This document shows, one piece after another, positions 2,248-62,632 of a stretch of DNA of 64,000 nt. Source of the DNA: Dicyema japonicum (Eukaryota; Dicyemida; Rhombozoa; Dicyemidae); assembly GCA_011109175.1 (NCBI GenBank), contig RDEW01000027.1, forward strand, positions 818,703-882,702, written 5' to 3'. A program made the position numbers and the translations under genes. The number at the start of each line of letters is the position of its first letter. Positions within the stretch are counted from its first letter, which is position 1. The notes beneath the pieces were generated by a model. The model was given only the letters and a program-made list of their open reading frames with translations, did no database searches and was not told the origin of the DNA.

Positions 2248-3357
2248 TCACTGAAAAGACTTGGAGAACGCCATCATCCAAATACAAAGCTGAGCCCGCT
2301 ACCAATAAAACAACTACACAACCATATTACTATCAAAGTCCCCTCTTATTGCTACAACCAGGGACTTGCCAGATCTATCACTCTTCACTTTTATCTCAGT
2401 CTTCGATTCGTCCTCAATTTTGTACAATATTTGATCACTTAACGCTTGATTGGCCGAAATGGGGACAGTCATCTCACTCCAATAAAATTTCTGAAAGGCC
2501 TTCTGTCTCAGCCACTCAAAAATAATAAACTGAGCCTTCCATTGATTCTCCAGAGGTCCTTCAACTGTCAAAAACGGATTCCCCCGTTCGTCAGGAGGTG
2601 AAAGCTAAAAGTCACATAAAGTAATAAAACTTTAATTTGAGCCCCGATCTCTTAAGAATTGCGTCGACAACATCCTGATAGGGGAGACCGACTTTTAAAG
2701 GAAGGATTATTTTGGCAGACACGGAGGAGGAAAGAAGGTATTTCAAATTAGCATTAATCACGTTCTTCGAAGTATTAAGCTGCTTGACTTTATCCGAAAT
2801 CTTCAAAATCAAACCCACGAGGTCAGTCAAGCTTGTGACTGTCACTAAAATGCAGGAATCAGGGCCCACTCTCATTCTAAAGAATAAAAACACCCAGACT
2901 AACCTAATCAGCTTAATTTTTGATCCAACAAAAGGTTCGAGTAGTTTTGGAACATTTTCCATCTTTCCAATGCCTCCCAAAAGTTTGGAGAGAACTTTGT
3001 TGGGAATCAAGACCTTCCCCCAAAACAGAGTCTCTCCGTTTCCAAAAAGGTACTCGAATATACGGATCAGGGTATTTCCACAATTATCTGCTTCACCGAC
3101 AACCTCGACTGACTTAATTTACGAATTATAAACCTACTCTTTCATAGGTGTTGCATTGAGTCAGCATTTTTAGAGAGACATTGTTCGATTCTATCCCCTC
3201 AGCAAAATACTCCCCATCTTGACCTGCAAAACAACTTCCATCAACTGGAAGCACCAGTCTTGAAGTGTTATACTAATTTGTACCTCACGACAATATTCTG
3301 TTCATCCACCGAATTCTGTACTATGGGTCTCTCTTCCTTTTGCCTAAAATTGTTCAT
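2248..3357 (-). CDS. Divergent KH-domain RNA-binding protein, IGF2BP/IMP-like
   Basis: Reading starts at the ATG at 3357-3355 and passes through five GT-AG mini-introns: 3259-3283, 3113-3137, 2877-2903, 2605-2630 and 2299-2322 (25, 25, 27, 26 and 24 nt). It ends at the TGA at 2250-2248, giving about 327 aa. The layout suggests four consecutive KH-like units. GxxG-like loops are visible in the first (GQDG) and second (GGIG). The last two units resemble the KH3-KH4 tandem of IGF2BP in spacing and in segments such as TVEGPLENQWKAQFIIF and WSEMTVPISA, but their GxxG loops are lost. The family binds mRNA in the cytoplasm. The phase across the 2605-2630 intron is off by one base, so either that splice site is misplaced or an indel lies nearby, for example at the G run near 2580. 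The KH assignment is by eye and moderate; the split-gene structure is stronger. Confidence 0.55.
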
Positions 3358-3779
3358 TGATAATCATACACAAGTCGTCTAGTATATGGTAACGCCATTC
3401 AAAGTCAATTAAATAAATTTTATTAAATTATTAAAACATATATTTCGTTTAATTAAATAATTTTTTAATAAATAGTTAACTTGATAAATTTAGTTAACTT
3501 TTTAATTTATTTTTTTCACATCAGACAAGAGACTGACAAACGGACGATCGATTTAAAAACAAAAAATGGTGTTATCCCGTTTCTCATAGATCTTTGGAGT
3601 GATTTTTTGACATGCACATGTCACTCTCACCCATGTTGAAAATTTCATATCAAAATTTGAATAGAAGACTTGTTTGTTGAAATGTATCTCTGCCTCATGG
3701 AAGATCGGAAATCATCTTATTGAATTTTAAATACAACCAATACATCGAACCATCATTTCTTATCATTTAGCGTAGGGCA
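3358..3779. other. AT-rich intergenic sequence
   Basis: Very AT-rich (TTAATTAAATAA-type runs at 3405-3520) with no coding signal. It is the upstream flank of the KH gene on the minus strand. Confidence 0.4.
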
Positions 3780-4055
3780 CATTCATTTCCTGGACAAATG
3801 TTTTGAAGATCTAAGCTACCCAAAAAAAGCCTCTAACATTACGGAACGGTGGAATTCTGGAGAGTCCCAGTCTCCAATGCCTCTGGAATCCCTAATACGT
3901 AAGAACTGAGTAACGTGTCGTTGTGACTACAAAGATTCAGTTATTCGGCCAATACGCGCTTGCGTGGGGTCGAGCGAGGAGCATCGGGCCAAGTTTCAGT
4001 TCTCTGCTAGAGCGTACTGGGATCACGTGATTAGTTAATTTGGTGTTGGCATTGT
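3780..4055 (+). mobile_element. LINE 3' fragment
   Basis: The stretch ends with GTACTGGGATCACGTGATTAGTTAATTTGG at 4016-4043 (only the GGGATCAC and TTAGT core is diagnostic), matching the 3' UTR start of the main LINE family. Upstream frames are decayed but contain the TGGACAAATG segment that follows the SYACASWGPSISWTN region in better copies. It is a 5'-truncated, degenerate insertion. Confidence 0.5.
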
Positions 4056-4355
4056 TATCATTCTAAAGGTCATAAAATTAAAACTAGAATACCGGACTGT
4101 TAAAATCTACCAATGTTTACCATCTACATTGGGATGCGATGATTGCATCATTTCCTCAGAAAGTATCTTAAACAATCGCTTGACTCTGACTTTCCAACCT
4201 TCCCACTACTCCGCTTACCATAGGGACATCCGTATAATTTATACTGACCTCAATTTGACCATAATGCCATTTTTTGTTTTTTTCAGCATAGTTATCTATT
4301 AAAAAAACAATGCACTTTCCGAAGAGCCATATCAGCTATCGGTCCCATATCAGCT

Positions 4356-4545
4356 ACAGAACAAACACTTTATTTTAAGCAAAGAACAGTTATCATAGCT
4401 AATCGATGAGGGAGAATCAAGGAGAGCTCTTCACTTCTTTGTTTTCTTTTCTTGGGTGTATGTCGTATAGACGATCCGGTTCCGCAGTGAAATGTTCACT
4501 GATGACGGCGTCACTCGTCAAGCCAAAGCAGTCAAATGGTGAACT
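4356..4545 (-). mobile_element. tRNA-derived SINE, 5'-truncated copy
   Basis: On the minus strand this matches the middle and 3' part of the SINE at 41534-41860: the GTGACGCCGTCATCAGTGAA block, the CGGAACCGGAT block, the A/G-rich segment (around 4425-4450) and the AACTGTTCTTTGCTTAAAATAAAGTG segment in short matching pieces. The tRNA-like head with A and B boxes is missing. Divergence from the better copies is high, so this is an old insertion. Confidence 0.7.
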
Positions 4546-4833
4546 CCGTAATCTATTAATATTAGTTTAATTTAAAATAATGATTCAACAATCGTATTCT
4601 GCACAGATACGAACGTAACTCCATGAAGTGACCACAACGTAGGCGTCCTAGGTGGACTGAACATTCCTCGGTAAAGAAGCTTTGCTTTCGTCAATAATTG
4701 TTGCAATACGATACAAGGCATCTGACGGCTTTAGTGGATATCCAGAGCATTTATTTTTCAGGTCATCAAATCATGAGAATGACGGGGGATCTTCTATTCA
4801 TTAAATTTTAGTAAAATAATAAATTTCCAATAA

Positions 4834-6510
4834 TTAAAGATTGGTAACAAAGTTGCTAACAACGTTTGAGATTGTATCTGCGTCATGTTCAGTTTTAGCT
4901 TCCGCATAAATTCTAACTACATCCTCTGTCCCGGAAGGTCTAACAAAGCACCGTCCTCCCTCAATGGATTCAACCAAACGATCAATCATGTTCTGGAGTT
5001 CCGGATGAGATGATAGCCGTCTCTCAGCATCGCAGGTCACAAATGCTAGTCTATCCTTTACTTTCACCTAATAATCAGATATGAAGGTCACTTTAGTCAA
5101 TTTTGACGGAAATGCTTCATACTGGGCCAGCCAATCCTCCAATGTCCACTCAAAAAAGTTCAAAGCCATCTCCACAAGAAGCATTGCAGAAATAGCATCA
5201 CCAATAGTAGGATTTACCATATCGAAGGATGCCAACAGGACACGTGCTGTCAATATTGCAGAATCATTCTTAAATTTTTAAAATTACCCTTACTGAAGAA
5301 ATCTTAGCAATGGACTCAACCTTGCGATATAAGCATTCTGAAAAATGGACAGAACCGTGTCCGTTAGCTTCGAAATATATTCCTAAGTCTAATTCCTCAG
5401 CCTTTTTGACGAGATGTTTGACTCCCGTGGGGACAAAAAAGATGGGTACGCCCAGAACCTCTTTAATATATTTAGATGATGCTCCGTTTGAGTAGGCTGT
5501 CTGTACAGCTCCAATTGAGACATCCGGGATGGTGGATTGAACCAAATACCTGCGGATCATAAATTCGGATACTTAAAGTATTTCATTAGAAGACACAGAA
5601 TTCTGTCTCCGTCCATCAGAAGATCTCTTCCATCAGGATTTGGCTGAAAGTATACGACTCTGTCCGCGTCTCCATCGAACGAGAGACACTTTTTATTTTT
5701 CAGGTCGTCAAATCCAAACGGCCTCTGCTCCTTGGTCTTCACAAAATCAGCTCCACAGTTGATGTTAAGACATGTCGGGTCCCCAATATTGTTATTCCTG
5801 AGTTCGAACCTCAGATACTTCAAAGACCTCATCAGTCTGTGGTCAAACATGACAGAAGCTACTCCGTTTGCACAATCAATAAAAGTGGGAGATTCCATTA
5901 ATTTTGACTTTATCAGATCACGTGCTGTCCGATATCCACCAAGTATACGATTTAGGTAGAATTCACTAGAGTTTTCAGCCAACCAGCCAACTTCGTTGTG
6001 AAAACGCACGGAAAAATGCAAACACGGTGTTGTGGTTAATCCAATGTTTATGGGAGTGACAAAGTCAGATAAAATATCGATCCCTTCCCTCAGACAAGAT
6101 AATAACTCGAGGGAGGAATTTCTGCTGTCGTATCCCAGGATGATATTGGGTTTTATCCTATTTTGGTTGTTCCTTATGATTTCTGAGGCAATCAAACAAA
6201 TTTCTTCGCTATCTGAATTTACAAATTGGCTACAGAATTCTTCGGCCTCCTGGGCCATCATTCCGCCATTGGAATCCACTATTTTTATTCCGTTATCTCC
6301 GGGAGGGTTATGGGAAGCGGTGATCATTAGACCAATGTAACTCTCTAATTTAATAGCACGGAGTGAAGCGAAAATTCCGACTTTGAAGAAAAGTTCTCTG
6401 AGAGAATTGGCTGAACCCCTGAACCCAGCGGTTCCATAATTCCAAACTGTTTCGGTTTTGTGTTTTTCGAACTTTTTGTAAATCTCAATGTAACTGTCTT
6501 CAAACCCCAT
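4834..6510 (-). CDS. PGM3: Phosphoacetylglucosamine mutase (PGM3/AGM1)
   Basis: The enzyme converts GlcNAc-6-phosphate to GlcNAc-1-phosphate in UDP-GlcNAc synthesis, in the cytosol. Four exons are joined by mini-introns at 5550-5572 (23 nt), 5269-5293 (25 nt) and 5068-5091 (24 nt), giving 534 aa, close to the roughly 540 aa usual for the family. All four functional loops are visible in order: the phosphoserine loop TASHNPP near residue 64, the metal loop DGDADR, the sugar loop EANGHGS, and the phosphate-binding loop RPSGTEDVVRIYAE near the C-terminus. The N-terminal NYGTAGFRG segment is also typical. The ATG at 6510 gives the expected short N-terminus before it. All introns are GT-AG and phase-consistent, with no frame break, so the gene looks intact. 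Only AT-rich DNA lies immediately upstream. Confidence 0.95.
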
Positions 6511-6639
6511 TTATATCGATGACGGAATTCAAAATTAAAAAATAATTTTAAATCAAATGTTAATTTAATTATTTTATGAACTTTTAGCTTAAATCATTTT
6601 TCCCGCTGCCATTCAGAAAGCTGACCATATTTTTATTCC

Positions 6640-8235
6640 TATATCGTCATACAAGAAGTTTATTCCTACCCTCAGCTCTTATACAATAAGTCTTATAAAA
6701 CAAAGAGACCGGCTGAAGAGATGCCATCTGTTGGACATGAAGTCTTTGACAGCCCTCAGACAAATGAATAAAAGGATCTGTCAGAGCATAAAAGAACACA
6801 AGGACAAGAGATGGCAGCATCTAGTTAACCACCTCGACAGGAAAAGTACATCCCGACATTTCTGGAAAACTCTTAAACAAGTCAAGTCGGAGCTGGATGA
6901 TGCAGACGGAACCGGAAAGTCTTCTCCTGAACACTTATACCACCTACATCCTAACACCCTTATGAAACATTACGCTGGAATTAGCTTCAAACCATTCTCG
7001 AAACACGTGGACATTAAGGTGCGTGCCCATAAACCGAAGAAGGAACCTTACCACGAACTATTCACAGATGACCAAGTCTTGGATGTGATCACCAGATTAA
7101 AGAGCTCACGGGCGTGCGGGCCTGACAAAGTATCTTCTATTCACCTAAAACACCTAAGCCACTTCGCAATCTCACAAACGCACAATCTTGGTTTCTATTG
7201 ACATCAACAAAGCCTTTGACACTGTTTCGAGGAAAATCATGGTTGGAAAAATATTTTCTACTAATATTCGTCAGAATGTGAAATTATGGCTGGCCAACTT
7301 TTTGTCTGGAAGACGTGGAAGAGTTGTCAGTGGTGATCTTAGATCTAGATCACGATTACTACCGAACGGGGTACCCCAGGGGTCTCCACTTTCACCAATT
7401 CTATTCAACCTATTCCTACACGACCTACCTAATGATGGAGACGAAGATTCCCTGCTATTATCCTACGCAGACGATGTAGTCATTGCAATACGGAACCGCT
7501 CGACGCAAGTCGTATCCCTTAAAACTCAGACAAAATTGAACACTTTCCACGATTGGATTGTTGGCAATCGACTAACGATTTCTGCAACCAAGTCTATATG
7601 TTCCACATTCACGTCGGACCGTCGTTCCAAAGGATGAACCGAGTCTTTTTATTGGTCCCACTCGGATTCCAGTGACAAGGTCCCCTTCTGTCCTTGGAGT
7701 CAAGTACGACAGTCTTCTCAATTTCAACTCCCACGCAACAGACATGATTACCAGGGCCTCCAAAAGTTAACGTTTTACGCGCCCTTGTCCGGAGGACCAC
7801 GAAACATGGACTTTTCCGTTTCTACCTCTACCAACAAACAATCGCGCCTGCCATTGAGTATGCCTCCGTTGCATGGAGATTTGCGCTATCAGAGACTATG
7901 GTCCACAGAGTCAACTCAATACACCAGAAAATGCTTTGCCCACGTAATGGATCAACAGTCATGGAAGCTAGATCCGTAGTCGTGGTTCCGGATTTCTTCG
8001 CGTCTGTGAGGAAGATGGAAACCCGCTTCGCCTGATCCTTTCCATGGCAAGAGAAAACCGATTGGATAAGAAATTCCCCTCCCCGATCGGATTCCTCTGC
8101 AAGACCGAGAGGACAATGGAAGATCACAGACGTCGAATGGCACAATTGATTGCGAGGACTGGGATCACCTAACTGTTTGACTCTTTTGTCTTTCTTTCTC
8201 GGTGTTCCCGGGGTTATTAAATTAAATAAATAAAA
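6640..8235 (+). mobile_element. LINE copy with internal RT deletion
   Basis: One frame (about 6655-7200) encodes the region before the RT core, including MKHYAGISFKPF and RLKSSRACGPDKV, and breaks off after HLKHLSHFAIS. The next frame starts directly in RT motif A (VSIDINKAFDTVSRK) at 7190 and continues through NGVPQGSPLSPILFN (motif B region) and SYADDVVIA (motif C, YADD). About 130 residues between the two blocks, present in the copy at 9414-11103, are missing. The C-terminal part to about 8170 has stops but ends with ARTGIT and the family 3' UTR with a TTAAATTAAATAAATAAA tail. A dead element. Confidence 0.9.
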
Positions 8236-8239
8236 AATA

Positions 8240-9292: not shown

Positions 9293-11143
9293 GTAGCCGA
9301 GTGGCATAATGGTTAAGTGTCGGGCTTACTGCTGTTCACCTGGTGGAAGGTTCCACGCATCGACGATGCTAAAAAAGTTTGACGAGTGACGCCGTCATCA
9401 GTGGATACTCACTTATTTATTTATTTAACTCCAAGACCACCAAGAAAGATAGGTCAAAGCTAACTAATTAGGTGATCCTAGCTTCCAGCAACATCCGGAC
9501 TCTCTTCAATTGGTCTTCTGATAATCCAACCGCCTCCGGAAGCGTCTTCTCTTGCTTCTGCAAAAGAATTCGATCGGCGTGCACTTTTTTATTCCCGACC
9601 GAAATTCCTCTGCATGGGTCACCTTTTCCTTGAATGGGTTTCCCAGTTCCTTGCAAAAACGAAGGAAACCCTGGCCATTCTTAAACGTCGCCTCATCAGA
9701 AATGAGGCCGCCAATAGGGATGTCTGTGTGGTGCATAATTCTCCACCTGAGGGAGTTCAAACGGTCCACTCTCGAAAGGGGAATCGCAAACCTCCAGACG
9801 GAGCAGGCATATTCAATGGTCGGTATGATTACTTGTTGATAGACCTTGCTGATGCAGTCGGCCGGGGGGGGGGGGGAAGAGGGCTCTTCTTTATCATCGC
9901 ATTCAGAATGTTCCATTTCTGAAGACCTTTGGCGAGCACCTCCTCCACGTACAACCTTCAATTCTAGGTCTTTTCTGGTCATTGATTAGACCCTTGGCGA
10001 ACGTCAACAGAGAGTCGAAAACAACACCAAGGATCTTCTGGGTCCGCGTAGAAGGGATGAGTATTTCCGATGGATATCTCAGCCCGCCTTTAAACCTTCT
10101 GTCCGTAGTGAATAATGTGAACTGAAACTTGGATGCTGATACGCATAACGTATTTGCTGATAGCAAGTCACAAATTCGGTTTAGGTGTGTCTGAACAATT
10201 GCTACAGCCATGGAAGGAGATTTATTTCTTGCAGCGATAATTAAGTCGTCCGCATAGGACAAAAACATAGTGTCCTGGTCATTGGTAGTAGGTAGGTCAT
10301 GTAGAAATACGTTGAAAAGGAGAGGAGATAAAGGGGAGCCTTGCGAGACTCCATTGGGGTAGTCTTGATTTTGAAGTGGTTTTGTCAATACGGACCCTTC
10401 CGCGTCGTCCAGTTAAGAAGTTTTCCAGACATAGCTTGATGTTTGGGTGTAAGTTCGAGTTAAAAATCTCTTGCGTTAGGAGTTTCCTCGGAACAGAGTC
10501 AAAGGCCTTCTGTATGTCGATGGATACTAAGGCCGTCCGTAAGTGTGTTTTCATGTTGAAGCCGTCAGTAATAAACTGGGAGATAGAACCCAAATGAGTC
10601 GTTGTAGAACAGTCTGCCCTGAAACCATGTTGAAACTCTGGTAGATGTAGAACAGGAGAGATGCGTATTAACACAAGCTTTTCCAGTACTTTTGATAAAA
10701 CACAAGTTATTGAGATGGGGCGGTAAGAAGAGGGAACGTCTTTTAGTTTTCTGGGCTTTAGGATTGGCGTAATCAGGAAGTTTTTCCATATATTAGGTAG
10801 CGAATGGTAGTTGATAGAGTCGTTGTACAGTCTTGATAGTATGGCCCGTGCCTGAGGTCCAAGGTGTTTGAAGTGAATAGTGCAAATACCGTCGGGACCA
10901 CAAGCACGAGTGGGATGTAGCAATTTAATAGCCTTTTCAACATCATCGAGGGTGAAGAAGGTGGAATATAGTTCTTGTTGTGGCCGGCGCCGTTCAACAA
11001 GTGTAGAACGAGAAAAATCTTTATGGCTGATCGATACGTAGTACTTCATAATCTTGTTTGCGAGTTTGCGTGCGAGTTCCGAAGCGTTGCGGGTAACGGC
11101 CTCTGGATACTCACTGCGGAACTGGATTGTCTAGAAAGGACTT
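9293..11143 (+). mobile_element. SINE, inverted 5' half, split by a nested LINE
   Basis: The plus-strand 5' half of the SINE lies at 9293-9413 and resumes at 11104-11143, ending at CTAGAAAGGAC, the base before the block that begins the adjoining inverted 3' half. Between them sits a minus-strand LINE (9414-11103). The sequence TGGATACTCACT occurs on both sides of that LINE (9402-9413 and 11104-11115), so it is the LINE's target-site duplication. The tRNA-like head keeps the A box (AGTGGCATAATGG) but lacks about 36 nt including the B box. Confidence 0.9.
9414..11103 (-). mobile_element. LINE copy (5'-truncated) nested in a SINE
   Basis: This is the best RT of the main LINE family. On the minus strand, from about 11100, it reads YVSISHKDF, then HPTRACGPDGI, SYRPISITCVLSKVLEKLV (RT motif 1-2 region), FQHGFRADCSTTTHL, VSIDIQKAFDSVPRKL (motif A), then after a frameshift near 10350 NGVSQGSPLSPLLFN and SYADDLIIA (motif C), and a C-terminal domain with TIEYACSVWRFAI. 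It ends at about 9475 with MLLEARIT, the 3' UTR and an AAATAAATAAATA tail (9414-9426). The 12-bp target duplication shows it inserted after the host SINE. Frameshifts near 10350, 9960 and 9550 make it non-functional. The APE endonuclease domain is absent. Confidence 0.95.
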
Positions 11144-12170: not shown

Positions 12171-13985
12171 TACTTAAACAGGGTAAACCGGGAGGAGAAG
12201 CCAAATCAAGAGCCTCAACAACGCAGTTGCACAGAGGTTGAAATCATTTCAAAGGAATGAATGGGAAAGCAGAATCAGAGGTCTTTGCAATCATAAATCT
12301 ACCCATTACATGTGGAAGACCATTAAAAAGCTCGGACTACATACAAAACCCAATAACACAGGCCAACCAAATGTCCAAGAACTAAACAACCTAATGAAGT
12401 TTTATGTCGGAATCAGCCACAAGAAATTCCTGAAAACCAGTCATTCATTTACGTTTACCAAGCCAAAAAGGTCTTCTTCATTATATTGCTTATCACACTC
12501 CGATATTTAAAATAAAATCAAAAATACAAAATCTTCCCTCTCCTGCAGTCCTGATCTGATTCCGACTATTCTGCTCAAACATCTCGGCCCAATTGGAATA
12601 GAAGCGCTCCGGAAAATCTTTAACTTTTCAATAAACCATAACCAAATTCCAGACATTTGGAAAGTCCAACATACGCCAAATTCTCAAGCCGGGGAGGCTG
12701 AAGAACAACCTCTCTTCGTACAGACACATTGCACTATTATGCTCATCCACGAAGCCTCTGGAAAAACTCGTTTTATACATCATTTACCTCGCCCTTCCCC
12801 TTACACAAATCCAACATGGTTACAGGAGAGACCGATCTACATCAACACACCTCACCTCGTTGAACCAGTTCATTATTGAAGGTTTGTCTACAAAACCAGA
12901 TCTAAAATCGGTTTTATGCTGTCTCGAACTACAAAAGGCCTTCGATTCTGTAACCAGAAAACTCCTCACTCAAGAACTATTTAGACTATCATTAACTCGG
13001 ACATAAAATAATAGCTTTCAAATTTCCTCAGCGGAAGAAGAGGGCGTGTATGCTTGGATGGGATTCGAGCAGTCTCAAGATTACTTCCAAATGGTGTTCC
13101 CCAAGGCTCCCCTCTGTCTCCTGCTCTATTCAACTTATAACTTTCCGACATTCCCAACCCAGTTATAGAAGACTCGAAAATTCTCACCTATGCTGATGAC
13201 CTACTAATTATTTCACGTAATAAAGACCTCACGAATGCTTAAAAAAAGTACAAGAAGTCTTGCTTCAAATTCAAACTGGGCTACATCAAAACCGGATGAA
13301 CATATCTCCTGAAAAATCCTCCACCACTCTATTTACCTCGTATAAAAAGCTCGGAAGATGTGCCGTTGATCTATTCCTGGACAACGAAAAAATCCCTTTT
13401 ACAAAGAACCATAAAATTCTGAGGGTCACTTTTAATACGCACATGTTTTTTTTCTGTTTATATTGAGAAGACTATTAGAACTTGTGAGAGGAAATTTGGT
13501 TTAGTCAAAGCCATATTTGGTGGAATAAAAATTTATTCCCTGCTCTTGGTGTTCTCTATAAGCAATTCATCGAGCCAACAATCAGTTACGCCTGTGCAGC
13601 ATGGGGAATTAATCTCTCGTGACCAACCGTCTTAAAGTTGATAACACCATATGTCGAGGGGCAACTACCATAATGCACATCGCAAAGCTGAACAACATTC
13701 CACACAGTCCCTTTGACCACCTTATTGAGCAAAACGGCAAGAGCTTCTTGAGGTTAAATCCTCCAGCAGGACCTGTCGTCGACAGTCCATCTTGTATCAA
13801 GTTTCCAGAAGCACATCACCCCAGTTAGCTTTCTCATAAACACTGTCCCCCGCCCATACCGTGAATGTGTCGGGTCAAAAGTCCAGCATCGGGAGAAGCT
13901 GAGAAAGCCCTTCAGGATTGTCTGGATCACCTAATTAATTTCAACGAGATTAACTATTGGTGTTTTTAGGTTAAAAAAAACCATC
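12171..13985 (+). mobile_element. Decayed LINE copy
   Basis: The 5' part (12238-12507) is open and contains KFYVGISHKKFLKTS, equivalent to KYYVSISHKDFSRST in the copy at 9414-11103. Degenerate frames follow: CSPDLIPTILLKHLGPIG, a KAFDSVTRKL motif A region at about 12940, NGVPQGSPLSPALFNL at about 13090, TYADDLLIISRNK (motif C) near 13190, and the C-terminal domain around 13560-13950. It ends in GGATCACCTAATTAATTT and an A-rich tail near 13980. Many stops and frameshifts. Confidence 0.85.
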
Positions 13986-15878: not shown

Positions 15879-18800
15879 ATGGTCGACCTGGTTTGTTTAA
15901 GATTCCACGATTTAGTTAAAATTTTCATAAAAAACCCGCCATTTTCAGAAAATTATAAGTATTGATGTTTCTAACCACTAGAAATGAATTAATTGATCGG
16001 ATCTGCAACTCTATATTCTATTTTCTATTGGATGGACTGAAACTACAGAAGGACTGGGACAACACAAACTCCACAGTATCCCAAAACCATCATTTTAAGT
16101 ACAATAGAACTTTTGGAAGTGTCTTGTGGAAGTCATTCACGTTTCCATCATCTCAGAGATCAATCGTCTTTCCCAGATCTCTACCGATGTGGGCAGATGC
16201 CAGGCTTTTGTCCGTCTCTCTCTCAACGAGCAGACTACAAGCTGTTACATTCGACACATGATGGAAAACCAGATCCTTATGAAGTTTAAATATTTTTGAT
16301 ATTTAGCCGATTTTATATCACTGGGGCTGCTCTGGTTAATCTAGAATATTCTAAAGCCTTTCTTGATTCTTTAACAGGTAATGCTTTCTAGAAAAATTCA
16401 GAACTAAACCAAGTCGGGTTCTATCTTTCTCTCAACGAATCCTTCCTGAATTCATGGAGTGATCCTATACTTGACTATCTCATTGGTGGATCCTTTTATC
16501 TACTGAATTTTGAAATAGCTGGTATGGAGACTGAGCCTAACAGTTTTTTTGTGGGTTATTTGAGGATCGGTTGGATCTTCTCCGGAAGAGTTGACTATAG
16601 TCGGTCGTGAAGGTTTGTTTGGAGTTTAATTTCTCTAGAAATGATCGGTGGAGATGCACACATTGAGGAGGATAAAAGTGAAGAAACTGAAAGCGGGAAA
16701 GTCCAAGGTTTCTTTAGAAATTTAATTACATAAGAGCTATATGCTGGAGACATCTACTGTGAGGAGGGTGATAAAACTGAGGAAATCGAGACCGATGAAA
16801 CTCAAAATTTAACTAATTGTAATTTTGAGCTATTTGACGATTTAGATGGTGATAAAACTGAAAGGAGACATATTCTGGTTTCACAAATCGCCAATTCAGC
16901 TAATTTATGTTCTCAAGTAGAAATCAATTCGGAAATATGCCAGTTATTAACTTCAACCTATATTCTTATAATAAACAATTAAAAGGCAACTTGTCTGAAA
17001 ATGACCCATTTCCTATTTTGAGAGCATATGAAGCTGAAAACAGAGCCAGAGGACGACGAAACTGGTAAAAGTGAACACGAGCCAGTTATTACTTCGGAAG
17101 ACAACGAGGCTGATAAAAGTGAACACGAGCCATTTGTTACTCCGGAAGACAGCGAGGCTGATAAAAGTGAACACGAGCCATTTGTTACTCCGGAAGACAG
17201 CGAGGCTAATAAAAGTGAACACGAGCCATTTGTTATTCCGGAAGACAGCGAGGCTAATAAAAGTGAACACGAGCCATTTGTTACTTTGGAAGACAACGAG
17301 GCTGATAAAAGCGAATATGAACGAGACATTACTTCGGAAGATAATGAAATTGATAAAAGAGATCTTGAGGCTGTCATTTGCAAAGACATTGAAGAGACTG
17401 ATGATGAACGATTAATTGCCACATACGAGGATAAATCTCAGGAAACCGATTATCTTCATTCCGATATTCAGGATGATATAATTGAAGATGAATGTGCATT
17501 TAGTTCATACGTCTCTGAAGTTGATAGACATAAAGTTGTACCAACGTATCCAAATATTCAAGAAACTGATAAGATTGACAACATAATCCTAATTAATCCA
17601 ATTGATGATAAGCAGATTATTGGTTCAGATATTCAAGAAATGGCAACAATGAGGATAAAGTGGTCATTTGTTCAAATATTCAAGAAAGTGGTGTTGTTGA
17701 GTCAAATTTTATTAACCCTGATGTTCTGAGTGAGCAGCATCCTTGTAGTCCAGCCATAGATGAGGTTGAGGAAACTGAAGACGAGCAAATCCTCAATACA
17801 AAAGCCTCAGAAGATAATAAAACACAGACGGGCATGTTCTCGATTCAGAGATCGTGAATATTATTTGACTGAAGATGTTGTTCAGATATTGGTATTAGTG
17901 CAAGACATCCATGGACCTGATGAAAATTGTTGATGAAGGAGTTTTGGCTCAGTACACAAGGTTGATAGAATGGAAGGTGCACTAGTTCCTAATTCGGATA
18001 ATATTGAAGTTGTGAGTACTGGACAAAAATTAACTACTAAAAGTGAGAAATCTGGTGAATTTCTTTGTCCAATCGACTCTCAAATTGAAGGATCTCCGAT
18101 TAATAATGCGAGGGAGAGAATATTCCCATAAATAAAGAAGTTGAGAATGACCATTTATTTGAATCTGATTTGGATGGAAATTTGATAAACATGTCTTCTT
18201 GTCCAGTCGACAAAATTGAGCAGCACGTGAATCTCGATACATCAATTGTAATAATCTGTCTAATCCTAAGGTCATAAGCGAGGACTTTGACTCACTACGC
18301 TTCAGGTTCCCGGACATTGTCAGTTTTGCCGCTCAAAACATGTGCTGTCGTTCCTGTCGGAAATGTTTTAACACAAATCCAAAAAATAACCGAAATCCAT
18401 ACTCAGCTTGTCAGAATTTCACTGTTTGTGCATTTGATGGTCTGTACTACTGTCCTGAATGCATTTCCCCGCGAAAAGCAAGAATTCCTGCTCGAATTGT
18501 GTTCAACTGGGACTTTAACCTTTACATTGGTCAGCAGTCTTATAAATTATAGTGTCGAGATATGCAGGGAAGTATTTGGAAGAAGGAGAGTGTGATCCCG
18601 TGTACAATATTAATGAGCTGAATCCACAGTTATTGAGACACTGCAAGATGATGGAGACTGTGGTGGTATAAGTGATTTGTTTTAGTATAGGAATTGAGAG
18701 TGAGGCTGACGAGTCTGTACAGATGCGTCTCTGTGTGCAATTTGGTGTTGAGTGAGAGGATTGTTGAGTTGATGAAGCCATCGGAGTACTTCCTATACAG

Positions 18801-37660: not shown

Positions 37661-38882
37661 ATGCGTGTTTTCTTAGACGGATGGTATTTCTATGTATAAT
37701 GTGAAGTTTTGACCTGATCCACTACGGACATGCGAATGCCTTGTATAAAGTATTTATTTTTTATATATTCTGGCCAAATGTTTTGGCCATGATTTAGTCG
37801 TAGGGGTTCACTCTGATGGTACTATTTAAGACTAATCCTTTAAGAGGACATTGCTCAAGTGAAGGCACAGCCTGTGTTTCCCTTGGAAGAACGACTGAAG
37901 ATCATGGAATCATTCCGTTGGATCATTCAAGTTACGACATTTTCTTATCACGAGGTTATATCGAGCTCTCCTTACGTCATACAGCTTGAGAATTTGGACG
38001 AGTATAACTGTGATTTTTGTGCCCACGCCGGTTTCTTTGTTTATAAATCATTTTAGATGATATAACACGTGACTCGAACAACGAGGACTGCTACAGGTTT
38101 ATCAAAGCGAGTAGGCGATATTTGTAGGCCAAGGACTAACTCATAGGGAATACAAGAGGACCGTTGGGATTTCAGCCACAGATTTAATTGATAGGTCGGT
38201 CGATGTTAGTAAATTTTGCAGAATTTTAAAATATGGAATTTCTCAGATTGAACGACCATTTGACAGCAGTCTCTATCCTTCGGCTAGAGTAATTGGAAAT
38301 TTTATCGGGCCTGCCAAACCAAGAACTAAAAACTCAACAGTCGTTTATGTAGACGGGACGTTTGATATTTATCGTTGATAGTTTTCTGGATTTTTAGACG
38401 TGGGGATCGTCTCCTTTATTGAGAAGGCAAAGGAGCTCGGGGACTACCTCATTGTTGGATTGTACTCTGATCAGAGAGTCCGTCAGTTAAAGGGAAACTA
38501 TCCTATTTGCTCGATTCATGAGAGAATGATGGTCCTCTTGGCCAACAAAAATATCGACGATTTGATCGTTGATGCTCCCTTTGAGGTTAACGAGGAATTC
38601 GTCAATTATCTTGAGGTTTGAAGCCGACTAATATTATTAGATTGACTTGGTGTGTTACGGAAGGACCAAGTTCACTTCTCAACCTGAAGTCGATCCATAC
38701 AAGGTTGATCTATTTTATGTACTTAAGTACCCCAGAGAAAAGGGAATTTTGAAAGAGGTCGATTCTGGCAGTGATGTGACTACTGAGACGATTATACAAA
38801 GGGTACAATCGAAAAGGTGTCGTTTTTGATTGTTTGTAGTGAACTTTACGAAGAGAGGAATGAAAAAAAGAAAAATAACTAA
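37661..38882 (+). CDS. PCYT2: Ethanolamine-phosphate cytidylyltransferase
   Basis: The enzyme makes CDP-ethanolamine from CTP and phosphoethanolamine, the rate-controlling step of the Kennedy pathway to phosphatidylethanolamine. Ten introns of 23-26 nt (37684-37706, 37750-37772, 37819-37844, 37931-37954, 38031-38056, 38124-38146, 38374-38397, 38616-38640, 38704-38727, 38817-38839) are removed to give an unbroken 326-aa frame. The first cytidylyltransferase fold has VFLDGCFDLIHYGH with an intact HxGH, HSDEDIAQVKAQPVF, SSPYVIQLENLDEYNCDFC and KRTVGISATDL. The second has VVYVDGTFDIYHVGIVSF, GNYPICSIHERM, IDLVCYGRTKF and KEVDSGSDVTTETIIQR. In the second fold HxGH reads HVGI. The second intron ends TG instead of AG. 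The tail SELYEERNEKKKNN matches the charged C-terminus of the family. Confidence 0.95.
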
Positions 38883-39895: not shown

Positions 39896-39966
39896 AATTC
39901 TATTTTATAAATTCGTTAACTTAAAATGGCCTAAATAAAGTAGTTATATTTAAGAAATATTAAAAA

Positions 39967-40047
39967 CGCATTGGCAGGATTCGAACCTGCGCGGGCGAAC
40001 CCCAGCAGCTTTCTAGGCTGCCGCCTTAACCGCTCGGCCACCAATGC
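39967..40047 (-). tRNA. tRNA-Ser(AGA)
   Basis: The minus strand folds as a class II tRNA: acceptor stem GCATTGG / CCAATGC, A box TGGCCGAGCGG, anticodon stem GCAGC / GCTGC with loop CTAGAAA (anticodon AGA, reading UCU), a long variable arm (TGGGGTTCGCCCGCG region), and B box GGTTCGAATCC. The discriminator base is G, as usual for tRNA-Ser. A run of five T follows at 39966-39962 as a Pol III terminator. No intron. All stems pair, so it looks functional. Confidence 0.97.
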
Positions 40048-40439
40048 ATTATCCATTCAATTATCATTTTAAAACCATTACTTATATTATTTTTAGACAA
40101 TATTTAAATCGTTTTATAATTTATAAACTATTCTACTTAGAATTTAATCCTTAATTAATATATTAAACAAAATTGAGTTGTTTGTACATTCTTTAATCTC
40201 ATATTCTATTTAATTCAATTGATGTGCTCTCATATAATTTCAACAAATTTCTTCTCCTCGAAATTAAATTTTAAGGGTGCATTTCAGGCTTTGGGCTGTT
40301 TCTCAATAGTGAGAGCTCATCTTGATAAAAAAAGACATGCTATGAAAAGAAACAACTTCTGACACAATCTCACCAATCTCCTATCTTTTCGAGCAATCGT
40401 CGACTAATTTGAAGTTAGAGACAAAGTTGGACGTCTGAA

Positions 40440-44824: not shown

Positions 44825-45030
44825 ATTTATTCAGTCAGGGCCGGCCGTTATAAAACTATTTCTTAATTTTATTTTTATAAATTCGTTAACTTAACTTAAA
44901 AATGGGTTAAATAAAAGTAGTTATATTTAAGAAATATTAAAAACGCATTGGACAGGATTCCTACCTGCGCGGGGCGAACCCCAGCAGCTTTCTAGGCTGC
45001 CGACTTAACCACTCAGCCACCAATCCTTTT
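44825..45030. repeat. Diverged duplicate of the 39860-40050 segment
   Basis: Matches 39860-40048 from CAGTCAGGGC (C-terminal codons of the endonuclease-type element) through its 3' tail, the TTAAGAAATATTAAAAACG spacer and the tRNA-Ser. Small indels and substitutions are spread along its length. Outside these limits the two loci do not match. Confidence 0.95.
44945..45026 (-). pseudogene. tRNA-Ser(AGA) pseudogene
   Basis: Diverged copy of the tRNA at 39967-40047. The anticodon arm (AGA) is intact, but the B box reads GGTAGGAATCC instead of GGTTCGAATCC, destroying the T-loop. The acceptor stem no longer pairs fully (5' GGATTGG against 3' CCAATGC), and an extra base lies in both the variable and T arms. 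Confidence 0.9.
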
Positions 45031-49238: not shown

Positions 49239-50240
49239 TCAAACTATTGATATCTCTAAATTCTCCCCATAGTTTGCATCAATGATATGTTCCGATCTTG
49301 GGATGCCGACGACTAGCCCCAAAATGTGCTCTGATATCTGTTGGTTCTGTATTGGATAGAATATCAGATTGGAAAAAACTGGTAGTGGAATTCGTTGGGT
49401 CACAACGACTCCTTCCTTCCAATCAAAGGTCATCACTCCGATGAAAGGGTATTCAAAGGACCGCATGTTTTCGTAGAAGATTGGAAAGACCACAACTTTG
49501 CTCTCGTTGACCACATAGTGTGCCGTAGAATAGCAAGGACTATCGGTTGTCCGCAATTCCGCGAAATGGGATAATTTCACATCAAAAGTGTAAAGATAAG
49601 TTTTCACGGATCCGTCAAGCTCGGTGAGAATTCCATGAAACACAATTTTATGGCCGACAAAAAACGTGGTGTAAGAATTGAGGTTCCTTAGTTCAGGGAA
49701 CTCAAATCTTGTCCATATCCTTTCTTTTATTCGGTAAAAAAAGACTAGGCCATTGAGGGAGTACATAATCTCAAGAAGGTACTGAGAAATGGGTCGAATA
49801 ACATCGCTAGTGAGAACAAGGATGGGGTCCAATCCATCCATACAAAATGGCACCAGATGAGCCTTCGACGTTGGAGGTGGTCGAATGTGTCCCTGAACAT
49901 CCACACAGGACCATGCTCGGTCTCCAAATAAAGAAAATTGTTCAAAGCGGTTTGAGTACCGATGATGATGGCATCCTCCAAAACGGTAAAGAGTGTCCCC
50001 CATAATACAGAGTTTTTGCTCGTCGACTATTTCAGAATTAATATATTCTTCAGAAATACAGTCAGCCTTTAACGTCGAAAGGTTTTTGATCTTCTTCAAG
50101 AACTCCATCCTTCGTTTAGTTAGCATGTTCTGTATTAGGAAATTCCAGCTGCGACATACGAGCCTGAGGGAAATCAGCTGTGGAGAGGGAATGTATTGAA
50201 GGATTAGATTCTGATGGTTCAAATTTATGTCGTCACACAT
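49239..50240 (-). CDS. F-box protein, probably with kelch-like repeats
   Basis: An uninterrupted 333-aa frame from the ATG at 50240. The N-terminal 40 residues fit an F-box (NLILQYIPSPQLISLRLVCR, then SWNFLIQNML), which would dock to Skp1 in SCF ubiquitin ligases. From residue 80 a segment LYRFGGCHHH, followed by a spaced W, and then PPPTSKAHLVPF is like a kelch blade of FBXO42 (FGG, W, PP..R/K..H). Further strands follow but later blades are weak. No intron interrupts it, unlike its neighbours. Another frame continues to 49015 (SPVFTNGVLMQVM...), so the C-terminus may be longer after a splice or frame change near 49240. The substrate-binding role is inferred. Confidence 0.7.
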   Translation of the reverse strand: MCDDINLNHQNLILQYIPSPQLISLRLVCRSWNFLIQNMLTKRRMEFLKKIKNLSTLKADCISEEYINSEIVDEQKLCIMGDTLYRFGGCHHHRYSNRFEQFSLFGDRAWSCVDVQGHIRPPPTSKAHLVPFCMDGLDPILVLTSDVIRPISQYLLEIMYSLNGLVFFYRIKERIWTRFEFPELRNLNSYTTFFVGHKIVFHGILTELDGSVKTYLYTFDVKLSHFAELRTTDSPCYSTAHYVVNESKVVVFPIFYENMRSFEYPFIGVMTFDWKEGVVVTQRIPLPVFSNLIFYPIQNQQISEHILGLVVGIPRSEHIIDANYGENLEISIV

Positions 50241-50344
50241 AGAACAACATAAAACAAAATTTAAATTAAATAAATAATATTTAATTATTAAGAATAAAAT
50301 GAATGTTTAATTTCCTGTTACTTTTTGAATATAATAAATTTCAC

Positions 50345-52068: not shown

Positions 52069-53676
52069 ATGAAAAGTACCAATTGCGGATTAAAATTTAA
52101 GGAGATTTTAGCAAGGACAAAAAGCCCAACTTCTCTCATGCTAAATCTGAAAAAACACGTTCAAATCTCATGAAAGAAAAGATTTCTGATCATAAAGAAA
52201 CCACTAAAGAAGAAGAAAACCGCAACAATCTTGGAAAGGAAAAAACCGCAGAGAAAGAACTGGAAAATAATGAAGATGAAGATAAAGAATTCACCTCAAA
52301 CAGTTATGAGCCATATGGAAGGATCCATCAGCGAATCAAAAGTAGTAGTTTGCGAAATAAGCATTCATCAGTGTTGTTCCCAATCAAAACCAACTGGGCC
52401 CGTCTAAAGTTTTCGTATAACTGATCGTAGAAGGGAAAAAACCGATTGGAACAGTCTACTCAGGTTTTTTCCTGACAAAAAGCTCAATTTTTACTTTGGT
52501 ACGTGGAACATGAATGACCAAAAAGTATACATTACATAAATTCTAAGACTCTTCCAGAGAGGCTGATGGAGTTTATTCTACCGCTAGAAATTGAATGGCT
52601 GGGGGACATTTATATAATAACAACCCAGGAAAGCACATCCATGATGTATTTTGCGATTGTGTGAGAATAGTCATAAATGGGTGGTGGCAATTCAACGGAT
52701 CCTCGGAATTTACTACTATATGCTCACTCACTCCCAGTTCGGCAGTCTGAGTACTCTCATATTTGTTCGAAGGGACATTCTGTGGTACTGTGCCGGTTTT
52801 CGTTTTATCTTATCGCTTGACAGTTCAGTCCGTTCATCAGATCTCTACACGTGCTGGTTCCAAGATAAAGACCAAAGGGGGATTGGCTGTCAAACTAATT
52901 GTTTTTGGGACTCCGTTTATCATAGTCAACTCCCATCTGACATGTAGCTTTTTTATTCTAACAAAAGCTGGGGATGAAGAGGTTGAGGCTCGCATAAACG
53001 ACTACAACAAGATCTTTGCCTTCGTCAAAGAAAATTTTCAAATAAACCCGGAAATAGACAACATCTTCTGGTTGGGAGACTTGAACTTTCGTTTAAACGG
53101 AGATCTGAAGGATATTAGACCAATATTGTCGTCTTCAGCCATGGAAGAAAAAGATAAAATAACTGAAATGATCAAATTTGATTCCCTCAAAACTTTGATT
53201 GAGTCAAGTTTTATGGAAATTTTCAAATTTTAGAAAAAATCTTTGAAAACTTCATCGAGCCTTCCATAAAATTTCTGCCCACTTATAAGGTAGACCTGAG
53301 CACGAATCAATACGTCTATAATCGAAGGATACCAGCGTATACTGTGAGGGATTTCAATGATATCTAGGACAGAATTTTGTACTGTCTGAGTCAGAATATG
53401 AAAATATCCTGTCTTCATTACAACAGTGCTGTGCTGTACACGTCAGATCACAGGCCAGTCTATGCATTTTTCGAGATTTTTATGGAAGAAAATAACTCTG
53501 ACAAACTGTACGCTAACTGTTGAACTTTAGCTGCGGCTCAGCCCCAGGAGGATACGCTAGAAAAGTTTATAAAAAGGGTAAGATATTAAAAATTATGTTT
53601 AGTTGTTCCTCAAGAACGAAAGTCAAGTCGTTTTACGCAAAAAGTGAAGACCACTTCTTATTGCTCAATTCTGTGA
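52069..53676 (+). CDS. INPP5E: Inositol polyphosphate 5-phosphatase, INPP5E-like, with CaaX end
   Basis: Removes the 5-phosphate of phosphoinositides; INPP5E acts in cilia. Ten introns (52076-52101, 52409-52430, 52525-52547, 52646-52670, 52796-52823, 52944-52967, 53208-53233, 53344-53367, 53508-53530, 53578-53602; 22-28 nt) give an unbroken 453-aa frame. A lysine/glutamate-rich N-terminus leads into the catalytic core: FFPDKKLNFYFGTWNM, TQES, FVRRDILWYC, SKIKTKGGLAVK, VNSHLTSGDEEVEAR, FWLGDLNFRL, KFLPTYK, PAYTDRILY and TSDHRPVYAFFEI. Each is a 5-phosphatase motif, and PAYTDR (not PAWCDR) fits INPP5E. The last two introns are needed to reach the end YCSIL, a CaaX-type prenylation signal where INPP5E also has one. 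The first intron and start at 52069 are tentative; 52170 is the alternative ATG. Confidence 0.95.
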
Positions 53677-58400: not shown

Positions 58401-58449
58401 ACCCTATTTAGATTAACTATACAAAATTAAAAAAATGCCATATTAGCTA

Positions 58450-60175: not shown

Positions 60176-60179
60176 GAAA

Positions 60180-61145: not shown

Positions 61146-61514
61146 TTTCCAAGTTGATGTTAGACTTGAACATTATTTTTTGAAATCATATTGAAAATCA
61201 ATAACAAAATATTTAGAAACAAAGATCAAGAATATCATAAGTTCATTTAAACTTAAAAGTGATACCTCACATTACGATTTGTACTCAAAAGAAATATATA
61301 ACCCGAAATAAAATACATTAGTTTGGTTAATCACCTAATGGACCTTGAAATCCACATAATTTATACACAAAAAATTACTATGAAAGTAACTTTACAAATA
61401 AATTTTGTGGGCTCTTGCATCGTTTACTTTAAATGTGAAAGTGGCCCTTCAAGGCACAGCGTTATAAGTTTCAGGCCGTTCCAGTTAGAGGATCTCGACA
61501 TTTACTATGCTCAC

Positions 61515-61690
61515 TGTCCTGACGAGTGACGCCATAATCAATGAGACTTCACTGAGTTACTGGATTCTCCACAATGACTTACATACAACCAAAAAGAAGC
61601 CAAGAATATTATTGCCTCAATTCCTATTCTTTCCTTCTTAAAATAAGGTGTGTGCCCTCCAAAGTGGAGGCTTAAGTACTGGAAAAATTA
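61515..61690 (+). mobile_element. tRNA-derived SINE, truncated diverged copy
   Basis: Starts at CCTGACGAGTGACGCCATAA and continues through CACTGAGTTACTGGATT, ACAACCAAAAAGAAG and AAAATAAGGTGTGTGCCCTC to GGAGGCTTAAGTACTGG. No tRNA head. Old copy. Confidence 0.75.
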
Positions 61691-61978
61691 AACTACTCCA
61701 ATTTCATCGGTTTTTATCAGTCTTCTAAATAAACAGTGAACCCTTGTTGAACGGCTACATGGATTCAAATGAACACATTCATGAAATTCCCTAGGAATGC
61801 ATTCAGTCACGGTAAATTAAATAAAATTTAGCGGTTATGAGGATGAATGAATAACAACAAATCAAAATAAATAGACCAAATAAGAGGAAAAAACCTCATT
61901 TTTAGAAAAATAACCGCCTAAAGGAAGGTTATCGCTAAATCAAGGATAAATTTATTACGTCATAATTCATACTAGTCC
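61691..61978. other. Intergenic spacer
   Basis: AT-rich 3' flank of the ILRUN-like gene; nothing recognised. Confidence 0.35.
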
Positions 61979-62632
61979 TCACATGACGTAAGAGGGTTGC
62001 GAACTAGAATCTTCTACAACAAAAACAATCCAAAAGCAATCTAGAATAAAATAAACTCAAACCTGATATGGAAAGTCCATTGTTGAGACAAATTCTCAGT
62101 CGGCTATAGAAACTTCCAACAGAGGGATGACAGTTAAACACAAAGTTTAACTCGAACGTTGTCTTTGGATCCAACGGAGGGACCGCGGTTAAAGGAAATA
62201 TCTCGGTTCCTTCAACAAACTCAAATCTGCTTCCTTCTGGAACAGCTGTTTCGCCTGAGATATTAGTGTTACTTAAAACCAGAGTTTCCAAGGATTAATG
62301 ACTTGCAGATCACCAAAGGTTGGTTGCATGGCCAGGACGAAAAGTCTTGAGCTACAACTGTGGGTTGGTCAGGATGAGGATCGACAACTTCCAAGTGGGG
62401 AAGAGTAAAGCTGTCGCAGTATAAATCGTAGTAACAGCCGATGGCTTTTGGAATAGAACTGACATTAGAGGTAAGAAAACCCGTCAGACATTTCGAGAAG
62501 ATAAAGGCTTTGTTCCATGGTGATCTCGTAGTTAGTAATCTCCTGTAATTTTATGGCCTTGTTTTCGGTTCTATTTACATCCAATGAACGCATCTGCTTC
62601 ATTAAGAGTTCGTCAATATCTTCTTCGGACAT
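61979..62632 (-). CDS. ILRUN: ILRUN (C6orf106)-like protein with UBA-like and FW/NBR1-like domains
   Basis: In animals ILRUN dampens antiviral and inflammatory transcription through p300 and IRF3. From the ATG at 62632, introns 62459-62480 (22 nt), 62255-62279 (25 nt) and 62041-62062 (22 nt) leave a 194-aa frame to the TGA at 61981-61979. The N-terminal 55 residues match the UBA-like domain in length and pattern (EITNYEITMEQSLYLLEMSD, IPKAIGCYYD). The rest follows the FW (NBR1-like) domain: the QNSG position reads LGNSGETAVPEGSRF, then FPLTAVPPLDPKTTFEL, HPSVGSFYSRLRICLNNG (the G.Y...R block) and DCFWIVFVVE at the last strand. It ends right after the FW domain and lacks the long disordered tail of vertebrate ILRUN. 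The tryptophans that name the FW domain are only partly kept. Confidence 0.8.

Follow-up and report, generated by a model that had tools for sequence, protein, structure and literature searches.

Tiny U2-type introns of Dicyema japonicum and a putative branch adenosine that seems to be marked by position

The window analysed here, a stretch of 64,000 nucleotides from the genome of Dicyema japonicum, one of the dicyemids, minute animals that live in octopus kidneys, contains on its plus strand the gene for ethanolamine-phosphate cytidylyltransferase (PCYT2), which extends from start to stop codon at positions 37661..38882. Removal of 11 segments of 23–27 nt from this gene leaves a protein of 317 aa whose match is human PCYT2 (PDB 3elb, E 2.2e-81). 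The introns, all on the plus strand, are located at 37684..37706 (intron 1, 23 nt), 37750..37772 (intron 2, 23 nt, A at +16), 37819..37844 (intron 3, 26 nt, CTAAT, A at +17), 37931..37954 (intron 4, 24 nt, a multiple of three in phase 0), 38031..38056 (intron 5, 26 nt), 38124..38146 (intron 6, 23 nt, CTAAC, A at +16), 38195..38221 (intron 7, 27 nt), 38374..38397 (intron 8, 24 nt), 38616..38640 (intron 9, 25 nt, CTAAT, A at +16), 38704..38727 (intron 10, 24 nt, a multiple of three without in-frame stop) and 38817..38839 (intron 11, 23 nt). Intron 2 runs GT...TG with a non-AG acceptor and was accepted because its removal is needed to keep PCYT2 in frame and in agreement with the human protein. 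An earlier note on this DNA had listed ten introns in PCYT2; the short introns and the restored family protein stand, and the count is 11, one of them being the GT...TG intron.

On the minus strand, spliced alignment to Lycorma PGM3 places the gene for phosphoacetylglucosamine mutase (PGM3) at approximately 4852..6510, and its long first frame matches PDB 2dka (E 9.4e-44). The three introns claimed for this gene are borne out by the alignment, at 5550..5572 (intron 1, 23 nt), 5269..5293 (intron 2, 25 nt) and 5068..5091 (intron 3, 24 nt); the ab initio finder agrees on introns 2 and 3 and put intron 1 at 5572–5594. An INPP5E-like inositol polyphosphate 5-phosphatase gene is located on the plus strand at 52069..53676 (limits of the earlier note), and its joined exons match PDB 2xsw (E 1.5e-50). 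Ten introns had been proposed for the whole gene; six of 23–28 nt were rebuilt within the scope of the catalytic domain, at 52525..52547 (23 nt), 52646..52670 (25 nt), 52796..52823 (28 nt), 52944..52967 (24 nt, a multiple of three, CTAAC, A at +18), 53208..53233 (26 nt) and 53344..53367 (24 nt), all on the plus strand. Two further candidate introns lie on the minus strand, one at 62255..62279 in a gene named ILRUN by the earlier note (25 nt, GT...AG, CTAAT, A at +17) and one at 2877..2903 (27 nt, GT...AG); around the latter, the protein predicted ab initio retains the segment and has no Pfam match. All seven segments previously listed with coordinates run GT...AG on the coding strand and measure 23–27 nt. 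For the WDR74 region, where three introns had been claimed, the ab initio finder predicted two or one, depending on the run, and the resulting protein matches WD40-type families below cut-off only. An EB1 gene was not found in the window when one set of search expressions served as probe. A protein search with the intronless frame at 49239–50306 scored none of 876 candidates, and a tblastn search of plasmids with a retroelement frame gave no match.

Outside the window, the PRP8 gene of the same genome displays the pattern on a larger scale. Spliced alignment with Lingula PRP8 requires 36 introns, 35 of which measure 20–26 nt as found, and 1929 of 2282 residues of the spliced protein are the same as in Lingula; a stitched query of 1343 aa shares 87% identity with fish and Lingula PRP8, which marks it as an animal PRP8. 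In a 4-kb stretch covering half of this gene, GT-AG ranks first among all 256 dinucleotide pairs, with a score of 5070 versus 4773 for the next best pair, a median of 3889 for all 256 and 1736 without introns. The GT-AG score is still 5070 when introns in this stretch are restricted to 20–28 nt, and length bands of 15–19, 29–45 and 46–80 nt reach 2775, 4011 and 3830. Scans of the raw window for GT...TAAY...AG by length (four patterns, three of them limited to GTA/GTG donors, and 49 lengths) gave no convincing peak; the largest excess, CTAAY at 23 nt with 9 versus 2.9, concerns one of the 49 lengths. The intron signal is therefore unreadable without gene models. Judged by the homology of the rebuilt genes, the tiny introns are genuine introns.

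Three collections of introns were used for statistics. Set H comprises 68 homology-anchored introns, exclusive of the GT...TG intron of PCYT2. Set A comprises 61 ab initio introns from 12 hand-picked predicted genes out of 71 segments; eight of the 12 have a Pfam match above cut-off (for two of these the first 400 residues were scanned), a ninth is RED, and the other three are L023 coiled-coil, L025:2944 and L025:5129. A third, unfiltered and noisier collection (set B, 70 introns) may include false introns, some from retroelement frames. An initial version of the ab initio finder, for which PRP8 supplied most of the training data, returned few genes, and a version with open ends and retraining did better. 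Two calls adjoining an apparent one-base frame slip were corrected by hand before counting, from 38 to 24 nt in PRP8 and from 15 to 22 nt in DNAH6; a further DNAH6 call, of 38 nt and likewise beside an apparent slip, was removed, and a 68-nt intron of U2AF2 was excluded from motif counts. Median length is 23.5 nt in set H (n=68, with the DNAH6 call still at 15 nt) and 23 nt in set A (n=61), and 67 of 68 and 59 of 61 introns, respectively, do not exceed 28 nt. Since an AT-aware intron model and a length prior are built into the finder, neither the lengths nor the AT content of set A can count as independent evidence.

For comparison, 469 GT-AG segments of 20–28 nt in the exons of the same 11 genes that supplied 100 introns served as decoys. 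Introns differ from these in AT content (0.83 versus 0.60), T content (0.50 versus 0.29), T at −3 (0.63 versus 0.14) and G immediately 5′ of the intron (0.55 versus 0.16). Splice sites, AT content and length together separate introns from decoys with a cross-validated AUC of 0.951; adding branch words gives no gain in this discrimination (0.952), nor does the use of all features (0.948). Introns that are a multiple of three and lack in-frame stops do exist as claimed, for example at 38704–38727 in PCYT2. In-frame stops occur in 23 of 30 introns of length 3n and in 52 of 98 others (one-sided Fisher p 0.017; set H alone p 0.22, set A alone p 0.045). Selection for stops in 3n introns was considered and dropped: permuting the letters within introns already gives 21.0 ± 1.9 (3n) and 48.6 ± 4.4 (others) with stops, close to the observed counts, and hence there is no good evidence of such selection.

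The genome assembly (64.67 Mb; GC 0.374 in 200 kb sampled) contains several components of a spliceosome. U2 snRNA has 25 matches, 22 of them above cut-off, and U6 snRNA has 10, nine of them above cut-off. U1 snRNA has 11 matches at E<=0.001 and none above cut-off, the best one reaching 69.0 bits versus 69.5 and having an intact ACUUACCU 5′ end. PRP8, U2AF2, SF1 and RED are present, and so are U12 (85.4 bits, cut-off 53) and U6atac (37.0 bits, cut-off 33). Homology, the controls on dinucleotides and length, and the finding of U2, U6, PRP8, U2AF2, SF1 and the near-cut-off U1 all support a spliceosomal, U2-type nature of the 20–28 nt introns.

A branch-site motif had been described as visible, with CTAAC or CTAAT in many introns. 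As a sequence word it appears in a minority only, since CTAAY is carried by 6 of 128 introns where 3.4 are expected; the general signal is positional. An adenosine is nearly fixed at about +16 to +18, leaving 6–8 nt to the exon, and its UnAY context is weak. The five CTAAY examples singled out in the earlier note are apt, with their A at +16, +16, +17, +17 and +18, and this A coincides with the position-locked A of introns that lack the word. Of ten CTAAY words eight have their A within +15..+18; five of the ten are the examples just mentioned, and among the other five the count is three. The spacing between 5′ splice site and branch, formerly put at roughly 10 nt, would accordingly be revised to 15–17 nt.

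For introns of 22, 23, 24 and 25 nt the A peak lies at −7, −8, −7 and −9. The summed peak amounts to 67 of 106 introns versus 46.9 ± 2.9 after permutation and is reached by none of 2000 permutations, in a test devised after the base-frequency table had been inspected; the same test gives P values of 0.068, 0.87 and 0.78 for T, G and C. Positions of the A learned on PRP8 transfer to other genes (41 of 72, background 0.27, p 1.2e-7), and those learned on set H transfer to set A (26 of 47, p 1e-4) and to the noisier third set (23 of 52, p 0.005). Transfer from the remaining genes to PRP8 is weak (19 of 34, p 0.045), and exonic GT-AG decoys display no positional A (64 of 195, p 0.47). The best position varies somewhat by set, introns of 24 nt having it at −7 in PRP8 and at −8 elsewhere, and the 25-nt introns of the noisy set peak at −7 and −11. 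Anchoring the A at the 3′ end describes the data better than anchoring it at the 5′ end (log-likelihood −101.0 versus −107.5). An EM search that fixed only an A found U at −2 (0.71) and Y at +1 (0.82). In the main set its mass at +15..+18 was 0.71 versus 0.32 ± 0.06 in 25 permuted sets (maximum 0.43), none of which reached its likelihood; the U at −2 was equalled by one of the 25, and the noisy set alone gave a mass of 0.56. From these data we infer that the A locked in position acts as branch nucleotide; location, not a sequence word, seems to mark the branch point.

Together, these data make it likely that we are dealing with U2-type introns of a dicyemid animal, in a narrow band of 22–26 nt, with a branch A nearly fixed at about +16 to +18 in degenerate UnAY. 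A different reading, the view of Irimia and Roy, would be that tiny U2-type introns have no true branch signal, that any A in the U-rich body can serve, and that other constraints near the 3′ end produce the positional A as a side effect. The near-chance levels of CTAAY, TAAY and U2 complementarity in the 128 introns are in favor of it, the branch region showing no excess of pairing with U2 over Markov-simulated interiors (−0.85 versus −0.92 ± 0.14 kcal/mol), as is a report of 41 Dicyema introns without a branch signature (PMC2483917). However, the A peak shifts with intron length (22 nt: −7, 23 nt: −8, 25 nt: −9), is flanked by U at −2 and Y at +1, transfers to held-out genes and beats permutation, and we regard this reading as rather unlikely.

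It is extremely improbable that the segments are assembly errors, pseudogene damage or germline segments excised at the DNA level, like ciliate IESs: some ciliates do cut out DNA elements of like size, and the assembly appears to hold a few homopolymer frame slips (PRP8, DNAH6), but PRP8 has 35 of its 36 segments in one narrow size and matches Lingula over most of its residues, GT-AG leads all dinucleotide pairs, and an AG/GT consensus, U-rich bodies and spliceosomal RNAs are present. The presence of U12 and U6atac above cut-off would allow for introns of the minor, U12-type spliceosome, a reading to which we assign next to no weight, as the donors of 126 introns read GT followed by A or T without an RTATCCTTT extension. 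A search for the consensus [AG]TATCCTT[TC] in the window and in the loci retrieved gave 27 sites (overlapping loci counted repeatedly), two of them with a downstream U12-like branch word, and nothing convincing as a U12-type donor.

For the U2-type introns with a near-fixed branch A, we hypothesize recognition by intron definition from minimal cues. Besides a narrow length range, these would be a 5′ site weighted towards the exon (A-2 G-1 / GT followed by A or T), an intron body rich in U, and TAG at the 3′ end. Branching would use a single adenosine at about +16 to +18, 6–8 nt before the next exon in UnAY context, with the textbook word CTAAY at this position in few introns only. The spliceosome may measure back from the AG by means of U2AF, SF1 and U2, not by strong U2 pairing, and RED with its partner SMU1 may aid activation at a distance of 15–17 nt between 5′ splice site and branch. 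In the geometry of the human B complex, the extended helices of U6 with the 5′ splice site and of U2 with the branch cannot coexist at this distance, and therefore shortened or sequential helices would be needed. We lean slightly towards the broader proposal that an animal spliceosome of largely ordinary parts sets the branch by distance, using one A 16–18 nt into an intron of 22–26 nt with such helices, and that positional coding has arisen twice (compare Stentor).

The lower limit of intron length bears on the structure of the spliceosome. An animal with U2, U6, U2AF2, SF1, RED, U12 and U6atac that apparently works at 15–17 nt is a closer test of the spacing limit than ciliates or nucleomorphs, and the positional A converts the absence of a branch signature into a precise and checkable prediction. 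If branch choice by distance is true, a positional coding like that of Stentor would have evolved twice. In practice, most of the multi-exon gene models presented here would be broken up by gene finders whose minimum intron length is 30 nt or more.

Tiny dicyemid introns as such are already published and not new; the position-locked A seems to be the element added here. Ogino 2010 (Gene) is reportedly among the dicyemid intron literature. Such introns have been in print since 2007 (PMC2222250), with a reported mean of 26.2 nt (n=16) and median of 27 nt (Aruga 2007 PMC2222250, PMC6543705, Lu 2019 PMC6736024). They are likewise animal, spliceosomal and tiny, and the published D. japonicum genome (67.5 Mb with 4.1% gaps, 36.7% GC; dicyemid genome literature) agrees in size and GC with the one analysed here. 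The median of 23–24 nt over 129 introns is slightly lower than the 26–27 nt reported for Dicyema. The Dicyema survey, which credits this animal with the weakest known 5′ boundary score (PMC2483917), describes its 41 introns as lacking a branch signature, whereas a position-locked A is found here. Orthonectid introns have a published median of 57 nt, which sets them apart from the 23.5 nt found here. Human short introns are reported to need SMU1/RED, and RED is present here as well; human extracts are described as requiring about 50 nt between 5′ splice site and branch, in contrast to the 15–17 nt proposed for Dicyema (PMC6692369). Paramecium introns of about 25 nt, for which intron definition is considered likely (PMC12862383, PMC5014332), resemble those described here, whereas the ciliates covered in PMC12862383 are reported without U11/U12 snRNP and this genome retains U12 and U6atac. 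Stentor coeruleus (PMC9505925) likewise is described with no strong branch consensus, a U-enriched branch region and conserved U2 and U6. Its ciliate introns measure 15–16 nt, with an almost invariant branch A at the 10th nucleotide of 15-nt introns, while the introns of the animal studied here measure 22–26 nt and have their A at about +16 to +18.

In the window, all seven short segments for which the earlier note gave coordinates begin with GT and end with AG on the coding strand, with lengths of 23-27 nt. Excision of 11 segments (23-27 nt) from PCYT2 yields a 317-aa protein, which matches human PCYT2 (3elb) at E 2.2e-81 with both cytidylyltransferase domains covered. Ten of these segments have GT-AG ends, in agreement with the ten introns proposed for this gene; an eleventh, GT...TG (37750-37772), is needed as well and is counted as an intron despite its TG end because the reading frame requires its removal. 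This intron 2 carries an A at +16 (counted from the 5' end), as other introns do, and may be a genuine non-AG intron, a variant or a base error. Three introns were likewise recovered in PGM3, as claimed, and six, including 52944-52967, in the rebuilt catalytic domain of INPP5E, for which ten were claimed across the whole gene.

Other features of the window include reverse-transcriptase-like frames or fragments, LINE-type by eye (9506-11130, 6593-8032, 12187-13463 and 32954-34340), and an acidic frame at 17022-17729 in which a unit of about 16 residues (DKSEHEPFVTPEDSEA) recurs in tandem. An intronless 355-aa frame on the minus strand (49239-50306), F-box/kelch-like by eye, gave no homologue at E<=0.001 in a protein search. 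Two tRNA-Ser(AGA) genes are found at 39965-40049 and 44944-45026 (minus strand), the second being weak (31.1 bits, cut-off 29).

PRP8, present in the same genome outside the window, served as a control. Spliced alignment to Lingula PRP8 by dynamic programming gives 36 introns, 35 of them of 20-26 nt as found; the remaining 38-nt call is read as a 24-nt intron with an adjacent one-base frame slip at a T run. Identity at 1929 of 2282 aligned residues marks the genome as that of an animal. Over the first 4 kb, GT-AG scores 5070, the highest of the 256 possible donor/acceptor dinucleotide pairs (runner-up 4773, median 3889), against 1736 without introns; restriction of introns to 20-28 nt gives the same full score. 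Apparent one-base frame slips at homopolymers in PRP8 and DNAH6 (loci L037 and L040), genes otherwise well conserved, are most likely assembly errors. A 394-bp sequence, 100% identical between L037:1-394 (contig C87) and L038:5812-6205 (contig C114), contains part of a NAD kinase gene and adjoins a single N; it may be a duplication or an assembly artefact.

The homology-anchored introns (set H) number 68, from PRP8, PCYT2, PGM3, INPP5E, DNAH6 and U2AF2, with a median length of 23.5 nt. As first listed, 66 of the 68 fall within 20-28 nt, the exceptions being 15 nt (corrected to 22) and 68 nt. U2AF2 (L038, ~4400-4475) holds one 68-nt intron among others of 22-23 nt, so longer introns exist. A further 61 introns (set A) come from 12 ab initio gene models on a 200-kb part of the same contig plus the surroundings of U2AF2 and RED; eight of these models have Pfam matches above cut-off, one is RED, and three lay outside the Pfam scan. 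Lengths are read from set H, since the finder's prior shapes the length spread of set A. Motif analyses used 128 introns of 18-34 nt (67 from H, 61 from A).

Exons preceding introns end in A at -2 (0.59) and G at -1 (0.52). Introns start with GT followed by A or T, with G at +5 in just 0.16, and have T at -3 from their 3' end in 0.61. Compared with 469 exonic GT-AG decoys of 20-28 nt from the same 11 genes, 100 introns are richer in T (0.50 vs 0.29) and in AT (0.83 vs 0.60). Sites, AT and length together discriminate introns from decoys with AUC 0.951 (0.952 with branch words added). The AT-aware finder behind set A favours these contrasts; in PRP8 and PCYT2 only (45 introns, 159 decoys), AT alone gives 0.93.

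The CTAAY-type branch motif of the earlier note holds in part. CTAAC is over-represented in the 128 introns (4 vs 0.5 expected, P 0.002), but CTAAY itself is found in only 6, where 3.4 are expected (P 0.14), and 44 contain TAAY (41.7 expected). CTNAY is mildly over-represented (20 vs 11.7, P 0.02), as is YTNAY with its A at -6 to -9 (38 vs 26.7, P 0.007; 12 tests of this type were run). Complementarity of introns to U2 shows no excess over simulation.

Position is more informative than the word. In the pooled base frequencies A peaks close to the 3' end, and this peak sharpens once introns are split by length: -7 in 22 nt (0.69), -8 in 23 nt (0.58), -7 in 24 nt (0.64) and -9 in 25 nt (0.63), over a background of 0.32. 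The summed peak (67/106 vs 46.9 +/- 2.9 permuted) exceeds all 2000 within-intron permutations, and the same statistic is not significant for T, G or C. Positions learned on PRP8 predict the rest (41/72, p 1.2e-7) and, more weakly, the reverse (19/34, p 0.045); transfer also succeeds from H to A (26/47, p 1e-4) and from A to H (31/59, p 0.002). Learned positions hold as well in a noisier, unfiltered set B of 70 introns (23/52, p 0.005); applied to exonic decoys, they yield 64/195 (p 0.47).

An EM model with the A alone fixed recovers U at -2 (0.71) and Y at +1 (0.82) relative to it, the shape of yUnAy, the degenerate animal branch consensus. Its mass at +15 to +18 is 0.71, mostly 6-7 nt from the exon (0.32 +/- 0.06 in 25 permuted sets; 0.56 on set B alone). 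No permuted set of the 25 reaches the likelihoods for H+A or H+A+B; U at -2 is matched by 1/25 and 0/25, respectively. Among CTAAY words in 192 introns plus the previously proposed ILRUN candidate, 8 of 10 place their A at +15 to +18 (5/5 of those listed earlier, 3/5 of the remainder).

The same genome encodes PRP8, SF1 and RED, together with U6 snRNA with intact ACAGAG. U2 snRNA has an intact GUAGUA and an extra A before GUGUAGUA. The best U1 match lies just below cut-off (69.0 vs 69.5 bits), with ACUUACCU intact. The U2AF2 family model stays below cut-off exon by exon; once joined, its exons give a match to human U2AF65 (E 8e-56). U2 itself has 25 matches at 25 places, 22 above cut-off, ranging from near-identical to degraded; in all three copies scanned the match runs the full length, and both copies aligned carry the extra A. 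Genes for U12 (contig C68:163471-163599, minus strand, 85.4 bits) and U6atac (L043:1501-1598, minus strand, 37.0 bits) were also detected; judged by these matches, the minor spliceosome seems to be retained in a genome with 23-nt introns. On the minor spliceosome in dicyemids, a search of the open-access literature yielded only PMC2483917.

Intron length, sites, U-richness, the positional A and the spliceosome parts list are direct observations. The spliceosome would operate by intron definition: U2AF bound to the U-rich sequence and TAG may set a ruler, U2 would pick the A leaving 6-8 nt before the exon, with weak pairing, and RED, together with SMU1, might facilitate activation. The positional A, as putative branch nucleotide, implies 15-17 nt between 5' splice site and branch, rather than the roughly 10 nt suggested before. 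The extended helices that U6 forms with the 5'SS, and U2 with the branch, in human B complexes call for at least ~52 nt (PMC6692369); at 15-17 nt, these helices must be shorter or sequential.

Tiny introns in dicyemids are already known. The source assembly (64.67 Mb, 191 contigs, GC 0.374) may be set beside the reported D. japonicum genome (67.5 Mb, 4.1% gaps, 36.7% GC, mean intron 38.2; PMC6736024), a median intron of 27 in Dicyema sp. (PMC6543705) and a mean of 26.2 in D. acuticephalum (PMC2222250). No description of a branch A set by position in this kind of animal turned up in the open-access literature searched. Irimia and Roy describe the branch signature as absent in 41 Dicyema introns (PMC2483917), with which the near-chance branch words observed here agree. 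Orthonectid introns, in contrast, have a reported median of 57 (PMC6543705), vs ~23 nt here. Judged by size, GC, intron length and the animal PRP8, the genome is very probably that of a dicyemid. Stentor has a comparable positional solution, with the branch at nt 10 of 15 (PMC9505925).
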